Virus record (IMG/VR): IMGVR_UViG_3300043427_002600
Span: 1-60,769 of that record
Length of the DNA: 60,769 nucleotides
Reading direction: 5' to 3' (one strand)
From: a virus
Numbering within the stretch: the first letter of the stretch is position 1; each line of letters opens with the position of its first letter. Shown one piece after another: positions 5,026-28,915 of the stretch. The notes beneath the pieces are model-generated. The model made no database searches, had not been told where the DNA came from, and saw only the letters and a list, made by a program, of their open reading frames with translations. Both the position numbers and the translations under genes were made by a program.

Positions 5026-6062
5026 TATTCTACTTCGCAAGCTTGTTGGTAGAGGTCTTGAAAAATTCCTTTAATAATTGTCTTATCAAACTCAAATTCT
5101 GATTCATCAATATAACGACTTAGGATTGAAAGTGTATTCTCTTCTTCATCAATTTCAAAATCTTCACTTTCTTGAATTTCAAAGTTCTCAATAATTTTGA
5201 GTTCTTGAATATTCGCATTATAAAGTTTATCAATAAATTTCTCAAAATCTTTGGGTTTTGATTTTTTACGAACAATCACCTTTACAATTTTGTTTTCGTA
5301 TTCGGTTGTATCAAACAATTGATAAGGCGTGTCCTCATAGTAGATATTATAGAATAATTTATAAGGATTATTAATTGGAGTATGAGTAAGAGTTTCCGTA
5401 TCAAAGATATGAAATCCTCTTGTATCATTTACATCTGTCCAATACATTTCATAAGGATTACCAAGATAGAAAATGCGTCCATTATCAGAACGAGTGTGGT
5501 AATGACCAGAAAATACCTTCTTGAACTTTGAAAAAATATCCGCATCCAGTCCATGATCCTCCATTACAAGATTACGATTAACACGAAAACCTTGAAGTTC
5601 TAAATGACCCATAGCAACTTTCGCTTTGGTCTTTTGAATTTGGTTCAAAGTTTCTTCATAGTTTTCACTACAAATCCAGGGAATCATCATAATATTCAAT
5701 CCACCAACATTAATGGTTTGTGGAGAACTATAAGTCTTAATATTTGGATACGTTTGAAGAAGCAGACTGGGGGAATTAACGCTATTGGTATTCTTGTAGT
5801 AACAATCGTGATTACCAATAATCATATGAACCTCATACTTTTTCATAGGTTCAAATACAACTCTCTTTGCCCATTCAAGACTTTGATAGTCAATTGATTT
5901 ACGGCTATCAAAAGCATCACCCATATGAATGACTGCCTCTACTCCGTGTTCTTTGAGAGCAGGGAAAAATACATTCTTGTAGAACAACTCAAAATGGTCA
6001 TGAAGGTATTTGGAACCTTTTCTTGCCCCGTAATGTGTATCCGTAAGAATTGCTATCTTCAT
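5025..6062 (-). CDS. 47: gp47 recombination endonuclease subunit (Mre11/SbcD-like)
   Basis: This is the metallophosphoesterase nuclease partner of gp46. It has the motif series DTH (8-10), GD (48-49), GNHD (83-86), GHLELQG and GHYH (near 190), which ligand two metal ions. The length of 345 aa is normal for T4-like phages. It overlaps the gp55 gene by 4 nt (ATGA) upstream and the DUF3110 gene by TAATG downstream. Confidence 0.95.
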   Translation of the reverse strand: MKIAILTDTHYGARKGSKYLHDHFELFYKNVFFPALKEHGVEAVIHMGDAFDSRKSIDYQSLEWAKRVVFEPMKKYEVHMIIGNHDCYYKNTNSVNSPSLLLQTYPNIKTYSSPQTINVGGLNIMMIPWICSENYEETLNQIQKTKAKVAMGHLELQGFRVNRNLVMEDHGLDADIFSKFKKVFSGHYHTRSDNGRIFYLGNPYEMYWTDVNDTRGFHIFDTETLTHTPINNPYKLFYNIYYEDTPYQLFDTTEYENKIVKVIVRKKSKPKDFEKFIDKLYNANIQELKIIENFEIQESEDFEIDEEENTLSILSRYIDESEFEFDKTIIKGIFQDLYQQACEVE

Positions 6063-6580
6063 CGATTTCCGTTTCTGTACTGGATTGCGTCCTTCATACT
6101 ATTATACTCCGAATTGTTTCCAGAAAGCAAGTTGTCATCTATCATCATAACCTCATCAAAACCAGTTCTTTCAATAATCTTGGTCTTAATATCTAATTGC
6201 TTTTTCTCCTTTTGAATTCTTCTCAAAAATGCGTAGTGAATAATTTGAGTAAAGTAGGCAAAAGGATTTGTAGATTTCTCTGGGTCAAAATTATGAATAT
6301 ACTGAACACAGTTTTCAATTCCATCGGAAATCATATCCTCACGGAACATATAATTCACAAAGTTCGGTTTGTATGATAGATGAGTTGCAATCTTTAAAAA
6401 ACACTCTCCAAGATAGTTGGGAATAGGAGGCTTTCCTTCCCAATGTTTTGATCTATCTTGTCTTGTTGGATTTCTAGAATTTCTTTCAAAAAAATCTGCT
6501 TCAACTTTAGATCTATAAACAGTAAGTGCTTCTAATAATTCTTTATTATTTACATAGTGTTCAGTTTTCTTTTTAGGCAT
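6059..6580 (-). CDS. 55: gp55 late-transcription sigma factor
   Basis: This is a small sigma factor that directs host RNA polymerase to late promoters of TATAAATA type. At 173 aa it resembles cyanophage gp55 in NPFAYFTQIIHYAFLRRIQKEK, a sigma region-2-like helix. It leads the gp55-gp47-DUF3110-gp46 unit, driven by a clear host-type promoter at 6613-6642. Octamers of the expected type lie before many structural genes in this window. Confidence 0.88.
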   Translation of the reverse strand: MPKKKTEHYVNNKELLEALTVYRSKVEADFFERNSRNPTRQDRSKHWEGKPPIPNYLGECFLKIATHLSYKPNFVNYMFREDMISDGIENCVQYIHNFDPEKSTNPFAYFTQIIHYAFLRRIQKEKKQLDIKTKIIERTGFDEVMMIDDNLLSGNNSEYNSMKDAIQYRNGNR

Positions 6581-18983: not shown

Positions 18984-19211
18984 CTACCAATCAGGATAAT
19001 ACCAATCTGTACAATATCGTTTGGATTTTTTAGACTCTTTGATTCTTTTTATAGTACATTCTCTACACTCATATGAATACGATGATATTAGAGTATTATT
19101 CTTTCTTGTCTTATAAAATCCATCTATTAAATTTTTTTTAATTCCACAAACTCTACATTTTCTTTCTGTAAAAAGCAAGTGTTCTACTTCAAACTGTTCC
19201 CCCAAATCCAT
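18984..19211 (-). CDS. Zinc-ribbon protein resembling the N-terminus of HNH/EndoVII endonucleases (75 aa)
   Basis: The ATG overlaps the gp17 stop as TAATG; a GTG 15 nt upstream is an alternative. Cys pairs at residues 19/22 and 49/52 (CRVC and CREC), about 27 residues apart, form the treble-clef zinc ribbon that opens many phage HNH or endonuclease VII-like proteins. The catalytic HNH part is absent. The same Cys pattern opens the complete endonuclease VII-like protein at 22596-23006. It may be a decayed homing endonuclease or a free DNA-binding ribbon. It lies between gp17 and gp18, which are usually adjacent. Confidence 0.6.
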   Translation of the reverse strand: MDLGEQFEVEHLLFTERKCRVCGIKKNLIDGFYKTRKNNTLISSYSYECRECTIKRIKESKKSKRYCTDWYYPDW

Positions 19212-20932
19212 TAATGATATTCCCACATATATGAACGATCACCATATTCATCTGCATTCCATATCTCAGTGCTATCGAGTTTATTCTCATTAGTTGCAAA
19301 CATCCAACGATCTCCAGTCTTTTCTTCAACTACGACACTCATATCTTCCAATCCATCAGAAATAAATCCGAATGGGGACATATCCTGATCTATTTGATTT
19401 TTTTGTTCTTCATAAATTCTTTTGCGAACATCATTATCAGTCATTTCTTTGAAATAATCTTGAGCGACTAACCAAGAAAAAATAACCAAACACATTGCTA
19501 AGTCATCATTACATCCCTCTTCTGCTTCAAATGAATTGTGTTTTTGTGAAAATGTTGTTAATTCCGAAATAATATCATAATCTACAGTTAATAACTTATC
19601 ATCTTCCATTAATGTTTTTAAGTTGGAACATCCTAGTTTTTTAACTGCGGCAGTAGTCCTTACTCCAAGTTGCGACTTCTTACCACTAAATCCCGATCCA
19701 ACAATTTGACCAGCACGACCTCTCATAGCACACATTAAAATATTATCATATTCCAAGTCAAAATGAAGAATATTTGCAACTTGATCCCCGATATCATTGA
19801 CTTCAACTAACAACCAAGCATCATTGTATCCTCTGGCAACTTCATCAATAATACTTGGGAATAACATTGGTTTAATTTCATTATTTCTATATTTTCCGAC
19901 AACTTTATATGGAAAATTACTTATATCAAATATAATAAATGCCGAATAATCATTTCCAAGACCACGAGCAACATCAACAGTTATTAAGTAGTTATGTTCT
20001 TCTTGAGGATTTTCATAGATGTCCAAACCAGCATTTCTCTTTATTGGATCTTCATAAACAAAATTTCTAAGTTTTGCTGGATTAATTAATGTGTTAATAG
20101 ATCCTAAAAATTCACATTCAAACTCAACTTTAAATTGCTGCTCGCTAGTGTTAGCAATTGTTTGTTCTCTCCATTTTTCATCTCTTCCAGGAACTTCTGA
20201 CCAATGGACATCAGTGGGAATATATTCATTTTTCTTACGTTCCGCATCATGCCACATACGGTAAAAGTGATTCATACCACGAGGAGTGGATACGATAATT
20301 ACTTTTGTTGATTGTCCCGAAGAAATAGTAGGATAAACGGAAGCGAAGAAATCATCGGCAATATGATTTGGAATGAAAGCAAATTCGTCTAAAAATATAA
20401 TATTATAAGATCCACCACGAACAGCAGATGCTGATGTAGAAGCGGCAATGATTTTAGATCCATTTTCAAGCTCTAAGCTACCTCTGTTCCACTGTAAGAC
20501 ACCTTGCTGCATCCATTTGGGTAAATTTTCATATGCTAGTTGTAGGCGCTGCAAAAGGTCTCTGGCTGTCGATGCTTTGTTTGCGAGAATAGCAATATTC
20601 ACATTATCATTAAAGACCGCATAATGTAAAAGATAAGACACGCAAGTTGTTGATTTGCCAGTCTGACGAGGCATCTTGCAAATATTGAAACGGTTCTTAT
20701 GAAACCTTGAAATTAATTTTTCTTGAAATGGATATAATTCAAACGGAACAAGACCGTGATCCAAAGAAACAATTTTAATATAATTTCTAGCAAAATATAC
20801 CGGATCCTCTTTGCATTTAAAAAATTCTAGAATCTGTTCTTGAGACCATTGTATGGTAGTGTTTGCCTTTTTTAAATTGGGATTGGATAGATAGGCATCA
20901 CCCTGTTTTAATTGAATATCTTGAATTGCCAT
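19211..20932 (-). CDS. 17: gp17 large terminase subunit
   Basis: This is the packaging motor ATPase and headful nuclease. Walker A is RQTGKSTT (89-96), Walker B is IIFLDEFAF near 180, and the nuclease domain begins with DVARGLGNDYSAF near 330. The length of 573 aa is typical. It sits between gp16 and gp18 in T4 order, although two extra genes and a DUF5661-type gene separate it from gp16. Confidence 0.97.
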   Translation of the reverse strand: MAIQDIQLKQGDAYLSNPNLKKANTTIQWSQEQILEFFKCKEDPVYFARNYIKIVSLDHGLVPFELYPFQEKLISRFHKNRFNICKMPRQTGKSTTCVSYLLHYAVFNDNVNIAILANKASTARDLLQRLQLAYENLPKWMQQGVLQWNRGSLELENGSKIIAASTSASAVRGGSYNIIFLDEFAFIPNHIADDFFASVYPTISSGQSTKVIIVSTPRGMNHFYRMWHDAERKKNEYIPTDVHWSEVPGRDEKWREQTIANTSEQQFKVEFECEFLGSINTLINPAKLRNFVYEDPIKRNAGLDIYENPQEEHNYLITVDVARGLGNDYSAFIIFDISNFPYKVVGKYRNNEIKPMLFPSIIDEVARGYNDAWLLVEVNDIGDQVANILHFDLEYDNILMCAMRGRAGQIVGSGFSGKKSQLGVRTTAAVKKLGCSNLKTLMEDDKLLTVDYDIISELTTFSQKHNSFEAEEGCNDDLAMCLVIFSWLVAQDYFKEMTDNDVRKRIYEEQKNQIDQDMSPFGFISDGLEDMSVVVEEKTGDRWMFATNENKLDSTEIWNADEYGDRSYMWEYH

Positions 20933-22287: not shown

Positions 22288-22596
22288 TCAATCAGACCAA
22301 GAAAATTTTTCAGGTCTATATCTTTGCGAACTCTTAATAGTTATATCACTATTTGTTGATGGGTAAATGTTATGAACAATTGCTCCAGGATATTCTCCCT
22401 GAAGTTGCTCGGCAAGTTTAGTTTTATCCATCATTTGCCCACCAATTTCTAAACGATATATCTTTCCTTCCCAAACAACATCAGCGATAAAAGATTCGCT
22501 TGTAGTTTCTGGTTGGGGAGAATTCATATAAAGATTCCCATTGAAATCTCCGGCGATATTGATGCTTTCTGAAATAAATTGTTGAAATGATTTCAT
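22288..22596 (-). CDS. Small protein with capsid-targeting sequence (102 aa)
   Basis: The product begins MKSFQQFISESINIAG. It matches the T4 capsid-targeting sequence MKTYQEFIAE, with the gp21-type cleavage triplet ISE at residues 8-10, exactly where T4 has IAE. The rest is a compact, polar protein with a WEGKIYRLEIGGQMM strand-turn pattern and no recognised domain. The ATG overlaps the stop of the endonuclease gene as TAATG. It is probably a packaged internal protein. Confidence 0.6.
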   Translation of the reverse strand: MKSFQQFISESINIAGDFNGNLYMNSPQPETTSESFIADVVWEGKIYRLEIGGQMMDKTKLAEQLQGEYPGAIVHNIYPSTNSDITIKSSQRYRPEKFSWSD

Positions 22597-23006
22597 TACT
22601 TATCCTTTTCTCTTAAGTAATCTATCGCTGCTTGTAAATTATTTATGTTATCTTTAAAATTTCCCAATCCTCTATTACAGTGGTTACATAACATACCTCT
22701 AAATTTTCCTGTTCCATGATTATGATCCATTACCAAAGCATAAACTTTACCTAAATGTTTGTTATATCTTGAACCTGCAAGTTCATTACCACCACATATA
22801 TCACATTTTTCTTGTTTTCTCAATTCTTTAACTTCATCATCTGAAAGTTGACCTCTAAACTTTCCCCTGTTTATTTCACTTCTATAAGATGCTCTACATT
22901 TTCTACACCAACTATCTAAACCATCTTTACATTTATTATGAGGTGGAAAATTTATAGTGTCTCTTGGTTTTTCTTTTTTACACCTAGTACAGATTTTTGT
23001 ATTCAT
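22596..23006 (-). CDS. Endonuclease VII-type HNH/His-Me finger nuclease, probably homing
   Basis: The 136-aa protein has two zinc-binding pairs in an N-terminal ribbon (C6/C9 and C34/C37). A second set (C68/C71 and C107/C110) surrounds DHNHGTGKFRGMLCNHC, the catalytic His-Me motif of recombination endonuclease VII-like proteins. It stands alone inside the structural cluster between unrelated virion genes, as free-standing homing endonucleases do in T4-like phages. Its start codon and Shine-Dalgarno AAAGG lie inside an 18-bp inverted repeat (23001-23050). The nuclease call is strong; homing behaviour and control are inference. T4 gp49 function (resolvase) is an alternative. Confidence 0.85.
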   Translation of the reverse strand: MNTKICTRCKKEKPRDTINFPPHNKCKDGLDSWCRKCRASYRSEINRGKFRGQLSDDEVKELRKQEKCDICGGNELAGSRYNKHLGKVYALVMDHNHGTGKFRGMLCNHCNRGLGNFKDNINNLQAAIDYLREKDK

Positions 23007-23050
23007 ACCTTTTCATTACTCTATTATTTATGTAATGAAAAGGTATGAAT
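23001..23050 (-). promoter_or_regulatory. Perfect inverted repeat covering RBS and start of the endonuclease, with late octamer in the loop
   Basis: Arms 23001-23018 and 23033-23050 are exact 18-nt reverse complements with a 14-nt loop. On the minus strand the 3' arm contains GAAAAGGTATGAAT, that is the Shine-Dalgarno and ATG. The loop begins CATAAATA (23025-23032), the late promoter type also seen at 28908. Transcripts read through from upstream would hide the start, whereas transcripts begun in the loop would not. The hairpin may also act as a terminator. Confidence 0.75.
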
Positions 23051-24435
23051 TAACACTTCCATCTTCTTCTTGCTTTGCAAATTGGTTTATCTGGAGTTTT
23101 AGAGCAATCTATATTGTGCATATCTCTTTGACCTGCAGATCGTGAACAAAAATTCTTACGACGTTTTGCCCTTTTACCTTTTGGTTTTTTCTCAGTTACT
23201 GCAGTTTGAAGTTTTGACCCAGGATTTTCACGACGATAAGCATTTACTGCTGCTTGACTTAATCCATCTGTTTTATCTTGGCGATTCACTTTTTGCCAAT
23301 CTTCAAATAATCCAAGATCTGCTCTCCAATTTGAAAGTTCTTCCTTTTTTACGCAACGATTATAAGTTTTTCCAAAAAGTTTTTGAGTTCCTGTTTTTTT
23401 ATATCCAGTCCAACATTTTTTCGATTCTTCCACAACATCATGCTCTCCACTATCTATATAATCCGCTGCAGCATCAAGATAATCTGCTGCTTTTGTGATT
23501 TTTGACTGAACCCAAGCTTCAATATTACCCTCGCCTTTTAATTTTCCACGAAGTCTTCTTGCTGCAGAAATAATTGTAGAAAGTTCAGATCGGGCCATTG
23601 AATGCTCATGATCGTATTGTTTAGACTCTGGGAAATTTCCTGGATGTGGAGTATTTGGGTCATAATCTTTACCAAAAAGACTAGGTAAAGAGTACATATC
23701 CCAATATTTTGGACCATACTTACACTCACCGCGAGTCTCGTCTTTTTTACACTTAGGGCAAAATCTAATCATTTCCATAGCCTCTGATTTTGTACCCCAA
23801 TTGTCAGCACCCACTTTTCTACACCTTACAAGTGCCCCCGAAGCATATGCACTTGGCCAGATTTTATATCTACTTTTTACTTTATGATAACAAGCATCCT
23901 TTTCACCCTTCTTTTCTTGAATGTATTCTTCTTGTGTCACGATTTTTGCAGCTCCTGATCTATTTGGATTTGGATCTTCTCTACGTTTTTTAGCAGATCT
24001 TTTATTTCTTTCTTTTTTACTCATATTTGCACGATCATCGGGATCACGACAAAATGGTTTTGTCGTTTGACCTGGTTGTTTTGCACATGGCTTACCATCA
24101 TACTTTCCACCAGTTTGAACCCAACCACCATCATCAAACCACCTATCTAACCTGCCATTATAATCCTTTGCTTTAATTCCATCAGTTGCTTCTTTCACAT
24201 CATTAAATTTTTTATGGTCTTTTTTAGCATCAGATTCCATTTTTTTCAGACGAGTATAATAATCTGGGATTTCATCAAGATGCTGCAGAGCAATATCAGT
24301 AGCAAGGTCTTTATCTTTTGTATGCTCATATTCAATAGGGATTCCCATTCCCAGTTGATTCTTTATAAAAGAAACTTCTAAACGATGTTTCTTTGCAATT
24401 TGCTCAACCGTTTTATGAGATTTTAATTTATGCAC
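23050..24435 (-). CDS. DUF5661-like, Cys/Lys-rich cyanophage protein (461 aa)
   Basis: The start is GTG at 24433-24435; the second codons KLKSHKTVEQIAKKH and LGMGIPIEYEHTKDKDLA match the DUF5661-type domain, so the GTG start is kept. Later modules include TKPFCRDPDDRANMSKKE, a conserved DACYHKVKSRYKIWPSAYAS segment, CWTGYKKTGTQKLFGKTYN and a basic tail ending CKARRRWKC. Many Cys pairs and Lys/Arg runs suggest zinc-stabilised nucleic-acid binding. I do not know its function. It ends exactly in the arm of the inverted repeat at 23050. Confidence 0.6.
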   Translation of the reverse strand: MHKLKSHKTVEQIAKKHRLEVSFIKNQLGMGIPIEYEHTKDKDLATDIALQHLDEIPDYYTRLKKMESDAKKDHKKFNDVKEATDGIKAKDYNGRLDRWFDDGGWVQTGGKYDGKPCAKQPGQTTKPFCRDPDDRANMSKKERNKRSAKKRREDPNPNRSGAAKIVTQEEYIQEKKGEKDACYHKVKSRYKIWPSAYASGALVRCRKVGADNWGTKSEAMEMIRFCPKCKKDETRGECKYGPKYWDMYSLPSLFGKDYDPNTPHPGNFPESKQYDHEHSMARSELSTIISAARRLRGKLKGEGNIEAWVQSKITKAADYLDAAADYIDSGEHDVVEESKKCWTGYKKTGTQKLFGKTYNRCVKKEELSNWRADLGLFEDWQKVNRQDKTDGLSQAAVNAYRRENPGSKLQTAVTEKKPKGKRAKRRKNFCSRSAGQRDMHNIDCSKTPDKPICKARRRWKC

Positions 24436-28907: not shown

Positions 28908-28915
28908 TATTTATG
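28908..28915 (-). promoter_or_regulatory. Late promoter-like CATAAATA for the neck gene group
   Basis: Minus-strand octamer 25 nt before the start at 28883, overlapping the end of the 61-aa gene. Confidence 0.55.

Follow-up and report, generated by a model that had tools for sequence, protein, structure and literature searches.

The stretch of DNA analysed here (60,769 nt, hereafter the window) comes from a T4-like cyanophage and encodes terminase, neck and sheath proteins as well as a gp55-type late sigma factor. On the minus strand, the gene for the terminase small subunit is followed by a 461-aa gene, a hairpin, a 136-aa endonuclease gene and the gene for phrog_1742, after which come a 445-aa virion protein and the terminase large subunit (Table 1). 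A separate 80-aa ORF assigned to phrog_4723 ('endonuclease VII'; 18984-19226, minus strand) overlaps the end of the terminase large subunit gene, and neither a hairpin nor a late motif was found before it.

Table 1. Positions in the window of the hairpin, the neighbouring genes and the elements of the proposed late leader
Feature	Position	Strand	Remarks
gp55-type late sigma factor	6059..6580	-	phrog_234, E = 3e-64; same window
Downstream gene, 102 aa, phrog_1742	22288..22596	-	ATG overlaps endonuclease stop (TAATG)
EndoVII-motif endonuclease gene, 136 aa	22596..23006	-	two N-terminal CxxC pairs; C-terminal DHNH...R...CxxCN
Second CATAAATA, 3' end of endonuclease gene	22640..22647	-	51 nt before downstream ATG
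3' arm of hairpin	23001..23019	-	contains AAAAGG (23013-23008) and ATG (23006-23004)
Predicted late transcription start	23017..23021 (about 23019, ~6 nt past motif)	-	predicted from T4 geometry
Late-promoter motif CATAAATA (NATAAATA class, read by gp55)	23025..23032	-	motif match, kept in relatives
5' arm of hairpin, ATTCATACCTTTTCATTAC	23032..23050	-	absent from predicted loop-started RNA; covariation with 3' arm
Upstream gene, 461 aa, DUF5661 + DUF6321 tail (...ICKARRRWKC*, phrog_727)	23050..24435	-	stop adjoins hairpin

The hairpin is real, and the perfect inverted repeat reported in the preliminary description is confirmed as such, although its arms measure 19 bp (100% complementary) and lie 12 nt apart, rather than 18 nt with a 14-nt loop. 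It is the sole short-loop perfect inverted repeat longer than 12 bp in the window, where 2e-5 stems of at least 19 bp would be expected from a sequence of the same composition and the longest stem in 60 Markov-shuffled windows was 14 bp. The RNA folds at -27.9 kcal/mol (z = -7) and has no match in Rfam. As had been proposed, both the Shine-Dalgarno sequence and the ATG of the endonuclease gene are located within the hairpin, specifically in the 3' arm. The spacing between AAAAGG and the ATG is abnormally short at 1 nt, so expression from a short RNA begun in the loop may be weak; in several relatives (L019, L023-L026 and L047) the ATG falls 7-8 nt past AAGG, just beyond the arm. Two other hairpin-bearing members (L006 and L042) now have ATT and ATA in place of the start codon, for which decaying copies, sequencing error or non-standard starts are suggested alternatives.

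The late promoter previously placed in the loop was found at the border of stem and loop, where the C of CATAAATA is the final paired base of the 5' arm and the remainder of the motif is unpaired. The T4 late promoter is a TATA box that precedes the start by approximately one helical turn (PMC2988020), and NATAAATA is the late-promoter motif in cyanophages (PMC2984593). Based on this geometry, late RNA is predicted to start at about 23019, where the 3' arm begins, such that the transcript would lack the 5' arm altogether. It should be noted that ATAAATA is common, with 24 matches in the window and no excess over chance, and this counts against a promoter-driven leader. The second copy of CATAAATA, kept in 12 of the 12 members examined at the window-type site, is probably the promoter of the downstream phrog_1742 gene; the support is moderate, since ATA makes up 65% of the Ile codons and codon choice is weak proof of a second promoter. 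A late promoter serving the displaced neighbour gene has been described for T4 homing genes (PMC2988022), and the second motif inside the endonuclease gene may act in the same way.

We consider it quite likely that these elements together make up a late-promoter hairpin leader of the T4 type, and that it belongs to a mobile endonuclease gene with the EndoVII motif. The endonuclease cassette would include this self-contained leader. In polycistronic RNA arriving from upstream, the 19-bp hairpin would form and make the ribosome-binding site and start codon inaccessible, and such RNA would yield no nuclease. From the loop motif, the gp55 polymerase would initiate close to where the 3' arm begins, and this RNA, unable to form the hairpin, would be translatable. 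The T4-like design put forward in the preliminary description agrees with this anatomy: a hairpin encloses the ribosome-binding site and ATG, its loop bears a late-promoter motif, and the predicted late RNA is minus one arm.

Fold predictions, run alongside T4 positive controls, place the ribosome-binding site and start codon of the long RNA within the hairpin. The predicted cost of opening the region from the Shine-Dalgarno sequence to the ATG is 19.8 kcal/mol on the long RNA versus 1.6 kcal/mol on the loop-started RNA, while the 34 gene starts of the window have a mean of 4.6 and a maximum of 8.4 kcal/mol. By the same method the T4 controls gene 49, I-TevII, segB and e cost 12.1-15.6 kcal/mol (12.1 for gene 49 and 15.6 for e), and T4 mobB, mobC and mobD cost 0.7-5.4 kcal/mol. 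Some T4 starts with early promoters (55, regB and rI) score likewise high, at 11-16 kcal/mol, and opening cost alone is therefore not diagnostic.

The position of the upstream stop codon raises the prospect of translational coupling, in which a ribosome ending at the upstream DUF6321 gene opens the ribosome-binding site and the long mRNA supports a low, coupled level of synthesis. The stop (TAA, 23052-23050) has one base in common with the 5' arm, and a ribosome there would cover ~12 nt of that arm. Partial opening of the arm base beside the stop, by ribosomes that terminate there, is a point counted against the leader. Coupling is inescapable in the distant half of the endonuclease family, where the ORF starts within the DUF6321 tail. 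For the hairpin itself, coupling is rather unlikely, as at least 7 inner base pairs with the Shine-Dalgarno sequence would stay closed, and coupling needs no late promoter, yet nearly all family hairpins retain one, as do relatives without the 5' arm.

The encoded protein belongs to the Endonuclease_7 family (Pfam E = 2e-15), with C68, C71, D94, H95, H97, R103, C107, C110 and N111 invariant in 20 sequences. The catalytic motif spans 64-132 of the 136 residues and is C-terminal. In the scheme of Fang et al. (PMC6083498), a C-terminal motif marks the endonuclease clade with Hpy99I and an N-terminal motif the resolvase clade, which assigns the protein to the homing/restriction clade. Consistent with this, the match to Hpy99I in the PDB extends over residues 3-134 (E = 3.5e-13), that to T4 EndoVII is partial (E = 0.004) and similarity to T4 gp49 does not extend beyond the motif (43% over 40 aa). 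Identification as an EndoVII Holliday-junction resolvase such as T4 gp49 was rejected on these grounds: ~40 aa align, the motif is not N-terminal and Hpy99I is closer. The earlier label 'endonuclease VII-like' thus holds for family membership but not for resolvase identity, as Hpy99I is closest over the whole length. The sequence fits the DHHRN (EndoVII-motif) endonuclease family, with the restriction enzyme Hpy99I as the closest relative of solved structure.

Comparison with related loci defines the unit that was inserted. Among 80 loci with phrog_1742 as the downstream gene, 4 contain the endonuclease and 76 do not, and in the empty loci the upstream stop is at most 5 nt from, or overlaps, the downstream ATG; ATAAATA within 600 nt was found at none of the 76. 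In phage B23, where the corresponding gene tail is 84% identical in DNA to that of the window, the terminase large subunit gene begins one base later. Inspection of the joined site in relatives lacking the gene, a check proposed in the preliminary description, therefore finds the DUF6321-tail gene adjoining phrog_1742, or TerL in B23. These empty sites indicate that the inserted unit consists of the hairpin and the gene with the stop codon as its left edge, and the suggestion that one arm marks the insertion edge is borne out, since both neighbours join exactly there. The hairpin and the gene move together: a second group of contigs has both between the tail gene and a TerL-like gene (recognised by its N-terminus), such that one hairpin precedes two different downstream genes across insertion sites. 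At the same site as in the window, L013 and L014 have neither the hairpin nor the late motif and carry ~190 nt extra (a second CxxC fragment) between tail and gene.

An alignment search over 78 loci (58 distinct) found a W-x-C* tail directly ahead of the endonuclease gene in 75 of them (56 distinct); the DUF6321-type tail was recognised by this ending, with Pfam confirmation for the window gene only. Members that follow the tail occur in both low- and high-GC viral contigs (L191-L270). The pattern is as expected if the tail DNA is the insertion target of a putative cleavage, with the cassette integrating directly behind the stop of genes with a DUF6321-type tail, while an old functional pairing is a possible alternative. 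As in homing-endonuclease families, the gene is optional, its conserved neighbours also being found joined without it in empty alleles. The gene is mobile and probably homing, with putative endonuclease activity.

About 25 viral contigs, together with phage S-SRM01 (20-bp stem, ATAAATA loop), have the same hairpin ahead of a relative of the endonuclease gene, and most close protein relatives carry the leader. In a set of 21 sequences, standard pairs fill 92.6% of pair cells and sliding the arms reduces pairing to 41-48%. Two-sided changes occur at 4 pairs, a number reached by 4 of 500 shuffles, and the arm lengths vary in step (T4/A4 or T5/A5). Both arms are strongly conserved in sequence. As the 5' arm is neither coding nor in the predicted late RNA, its conservation speaks for selection on pairing. 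That conservation would also suit a DNA-level element, in which the EndoVII-fold protein would use the palindrome as an operator or as a cruciform substrate (a site of autorepression or recombination); EndoVII-fold proteins bind branched DNA, and I-TevI represses its own late promoter (PMC2988022). We regard such an element as improbable, however, in light of the G-U pairs and compensated indels, which fit RNA pairing, and of a protein closest to a sequence-specific enzyme (Hpy99I) rather than to a resolvase. Further, the 3' arm sequence is kept in relatives without the palindrome, as a leader should be.

Exact and looser hairpin patterns scanned over 2.9 million viral contigs revealed long hairpins only before the endonuclease family, with matches to the looser pattern elsewhere having only an 8-bp core in common. 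A general feature of cyanophage late genes was rejected, as the 241 kb of S-SRM01 contain no other stem of at least 13 bp with a late promoter. The motif on its own is associated with other nucleases in this phage: ATAAATA is found within 75 nt upstream of 8 of the 8 annotated nuclease genes examined and 32 of 139 others (p = 2e-5), in a test devised after the leaders had been seen. The psbA-internal endonuclease gene of S-SRM01 (L275:8380-8453) has TATAAATA only 5 nt before its ATG, and its late mRNA may therefore be leaderless.

A second, unrelated EndoVII-motif gene is present between g55 and g47 (L273:42500-42610, corresponding to S-SRM01 142200-142306, with leaders L276-L280). Here, TATAAATA lies between short inverted-repeat arms AATACTAT...ATAGTATT that are kept in relatives, and the hairpin has a weaker fold with the ATG outside. 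The window has g55 immediately next to g47, and this site is empty there.

At three S-SRM01 sites (L271:17970-18053, L271:48450-48536 and L275:10470-10551) a G+C-rich terminator-like hairpin occurs immediately before the late promoter, and two of these sites are enclosed by an 8-bp inverted repeat (CGGGTGAC/GTCACCCG and ACGGCAAT/ATTGCCGT). Such hairpins before nuclease genes are perhaps another form of insulation from readthrough. By analogy, the hairpin of the window could be a transcription terminator or RNA-processing hairpin shielding the cassette from readthrough, but this is highly improbable, as no U-run follows it on either strand and the terminator-like sites do not include it. An intrinsic terminator, defined by a G+C-rich stem and a U-run, was rejected for the absence of the U-run.

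Distant members of the family have no leader whatever, while L208, L214, L215 and L030 have the late promoter and a GTAATGAAAAGG-type leader with no 5' arm. Hairpin members and the armless late-promoter relatives form one well-supported clade, with the distant relatives lacking a hairpin. Given this clade pattern, either a late-promoter leader already in place acquired the 5' arm, or the arm disappeared on several occasions; 4-6 changes are required on the tree, which is compatible with one gain plus losses and with several gains. The similarity of the downstream gene start (TAATGAAAAG) to the 3' arm might suggest a duplicate, which was rejected because GTAATGAAAAGG is a leader of the family that persists at other sites and in relatives lacking the hairpin.

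The terminase/neck/sheath operon is a late transcription unit in T4-like phages. The proposal that the device limits the nuclease to late infection is not supported in that form, as the gene lies inside this operon and its neighbours are themselves late-type. Going upstream, the first ATAAATA between genes lies at 28908-28914, and sigma-70-like sites showed no excess over chance. Combined with the late-type neighbours, that ATAAATA suggests that readthrough RNA is probably late too, and the device is thus read as selecting RNA by origin and not simply by time, probably unhooking the nuclease from the structural operon onto its own promoter. The benefit of this is not obvious when the neighbouring genes are also late, which counts against the leader. 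More tentatively, and at just short of an even chance, the leader may be a portable insulator for a selfish gene that responds to RNA origin rather than timing and holds the nuclease apart from the strong late structural operon around it. The 5' arm would then be an inverted copy of the leader, added in this family ahead of a late promoter already present, and would now travel with the gene between DUF6321-tail genes.

This leader extends the T4 late-promoter hairpin to another nuclease family and host group, and provides a natural series in one mobile gene: a leaderless overlapping start, a late promoter alone, and a late promoter with a hairpin. With empty alleles and the cultured hosts of S-SRM01 and B23, the question of why homing nucleases hide their starts becomes testable outside T4, including in late operons where timing alone cannot explain hidden starts.

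Among cyanophages, the Synechococcus phage S-SRM01 (MW015081) has the same cassette at the same site, with a gene at 126172 whose protein is 84% identical; it is annotated 'recombination endonuclease VII' in a paper that makes no mention of the hairpin (PMC8557907). The literature searched gave no description of a late-promoter hairpin leader for cyanophage nucleases, nor of such a hairpin for F-CphI of cyanophage S-PM2. F-CphI is similarly a free-standing cyanophage endonuclease with a C-terminal EndoVII motif (DHHRN, PMC6083498), but adjoins psbA and an intron, whereas the gene described here lies behind DUF6321-tail genes. In T4, gene 49 (endonuclease VII), e and soc likewise have a ribosome-binding site sequestered in the long RNA and relieved by a late promoter (PMC3014915). 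Gene 49 and the present gene have the catalytic motif in common, although gene 49 is T4's own resolvase among early genes. The homing genes I-TevI, I-TevII, I-TevIII and segB of T4 and mobE of Aeh1 share the hairpin that sequesters the ribosome-binding site and the late RNA minus the 5' strand (PMC2988022). The preliminary description named I-TevI as the precedent, and the likeness in design stands, though not for I-TevI alone, as gene 49, segB, e, soc and Aeh1 mobE are equally close. The leaders of the I-Tev genes, segB and mobE belong to GIY-YIG or HNH genes among early or middle genes, while this one belongs to an EndoVII-motif gene in a late packaging operon, and its sequence is unrelated to theirs and conserved across insertion sites. 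The T4 hairpins delay translation of long RNAs that are early or middle, whereas here the neighbours are late-type.
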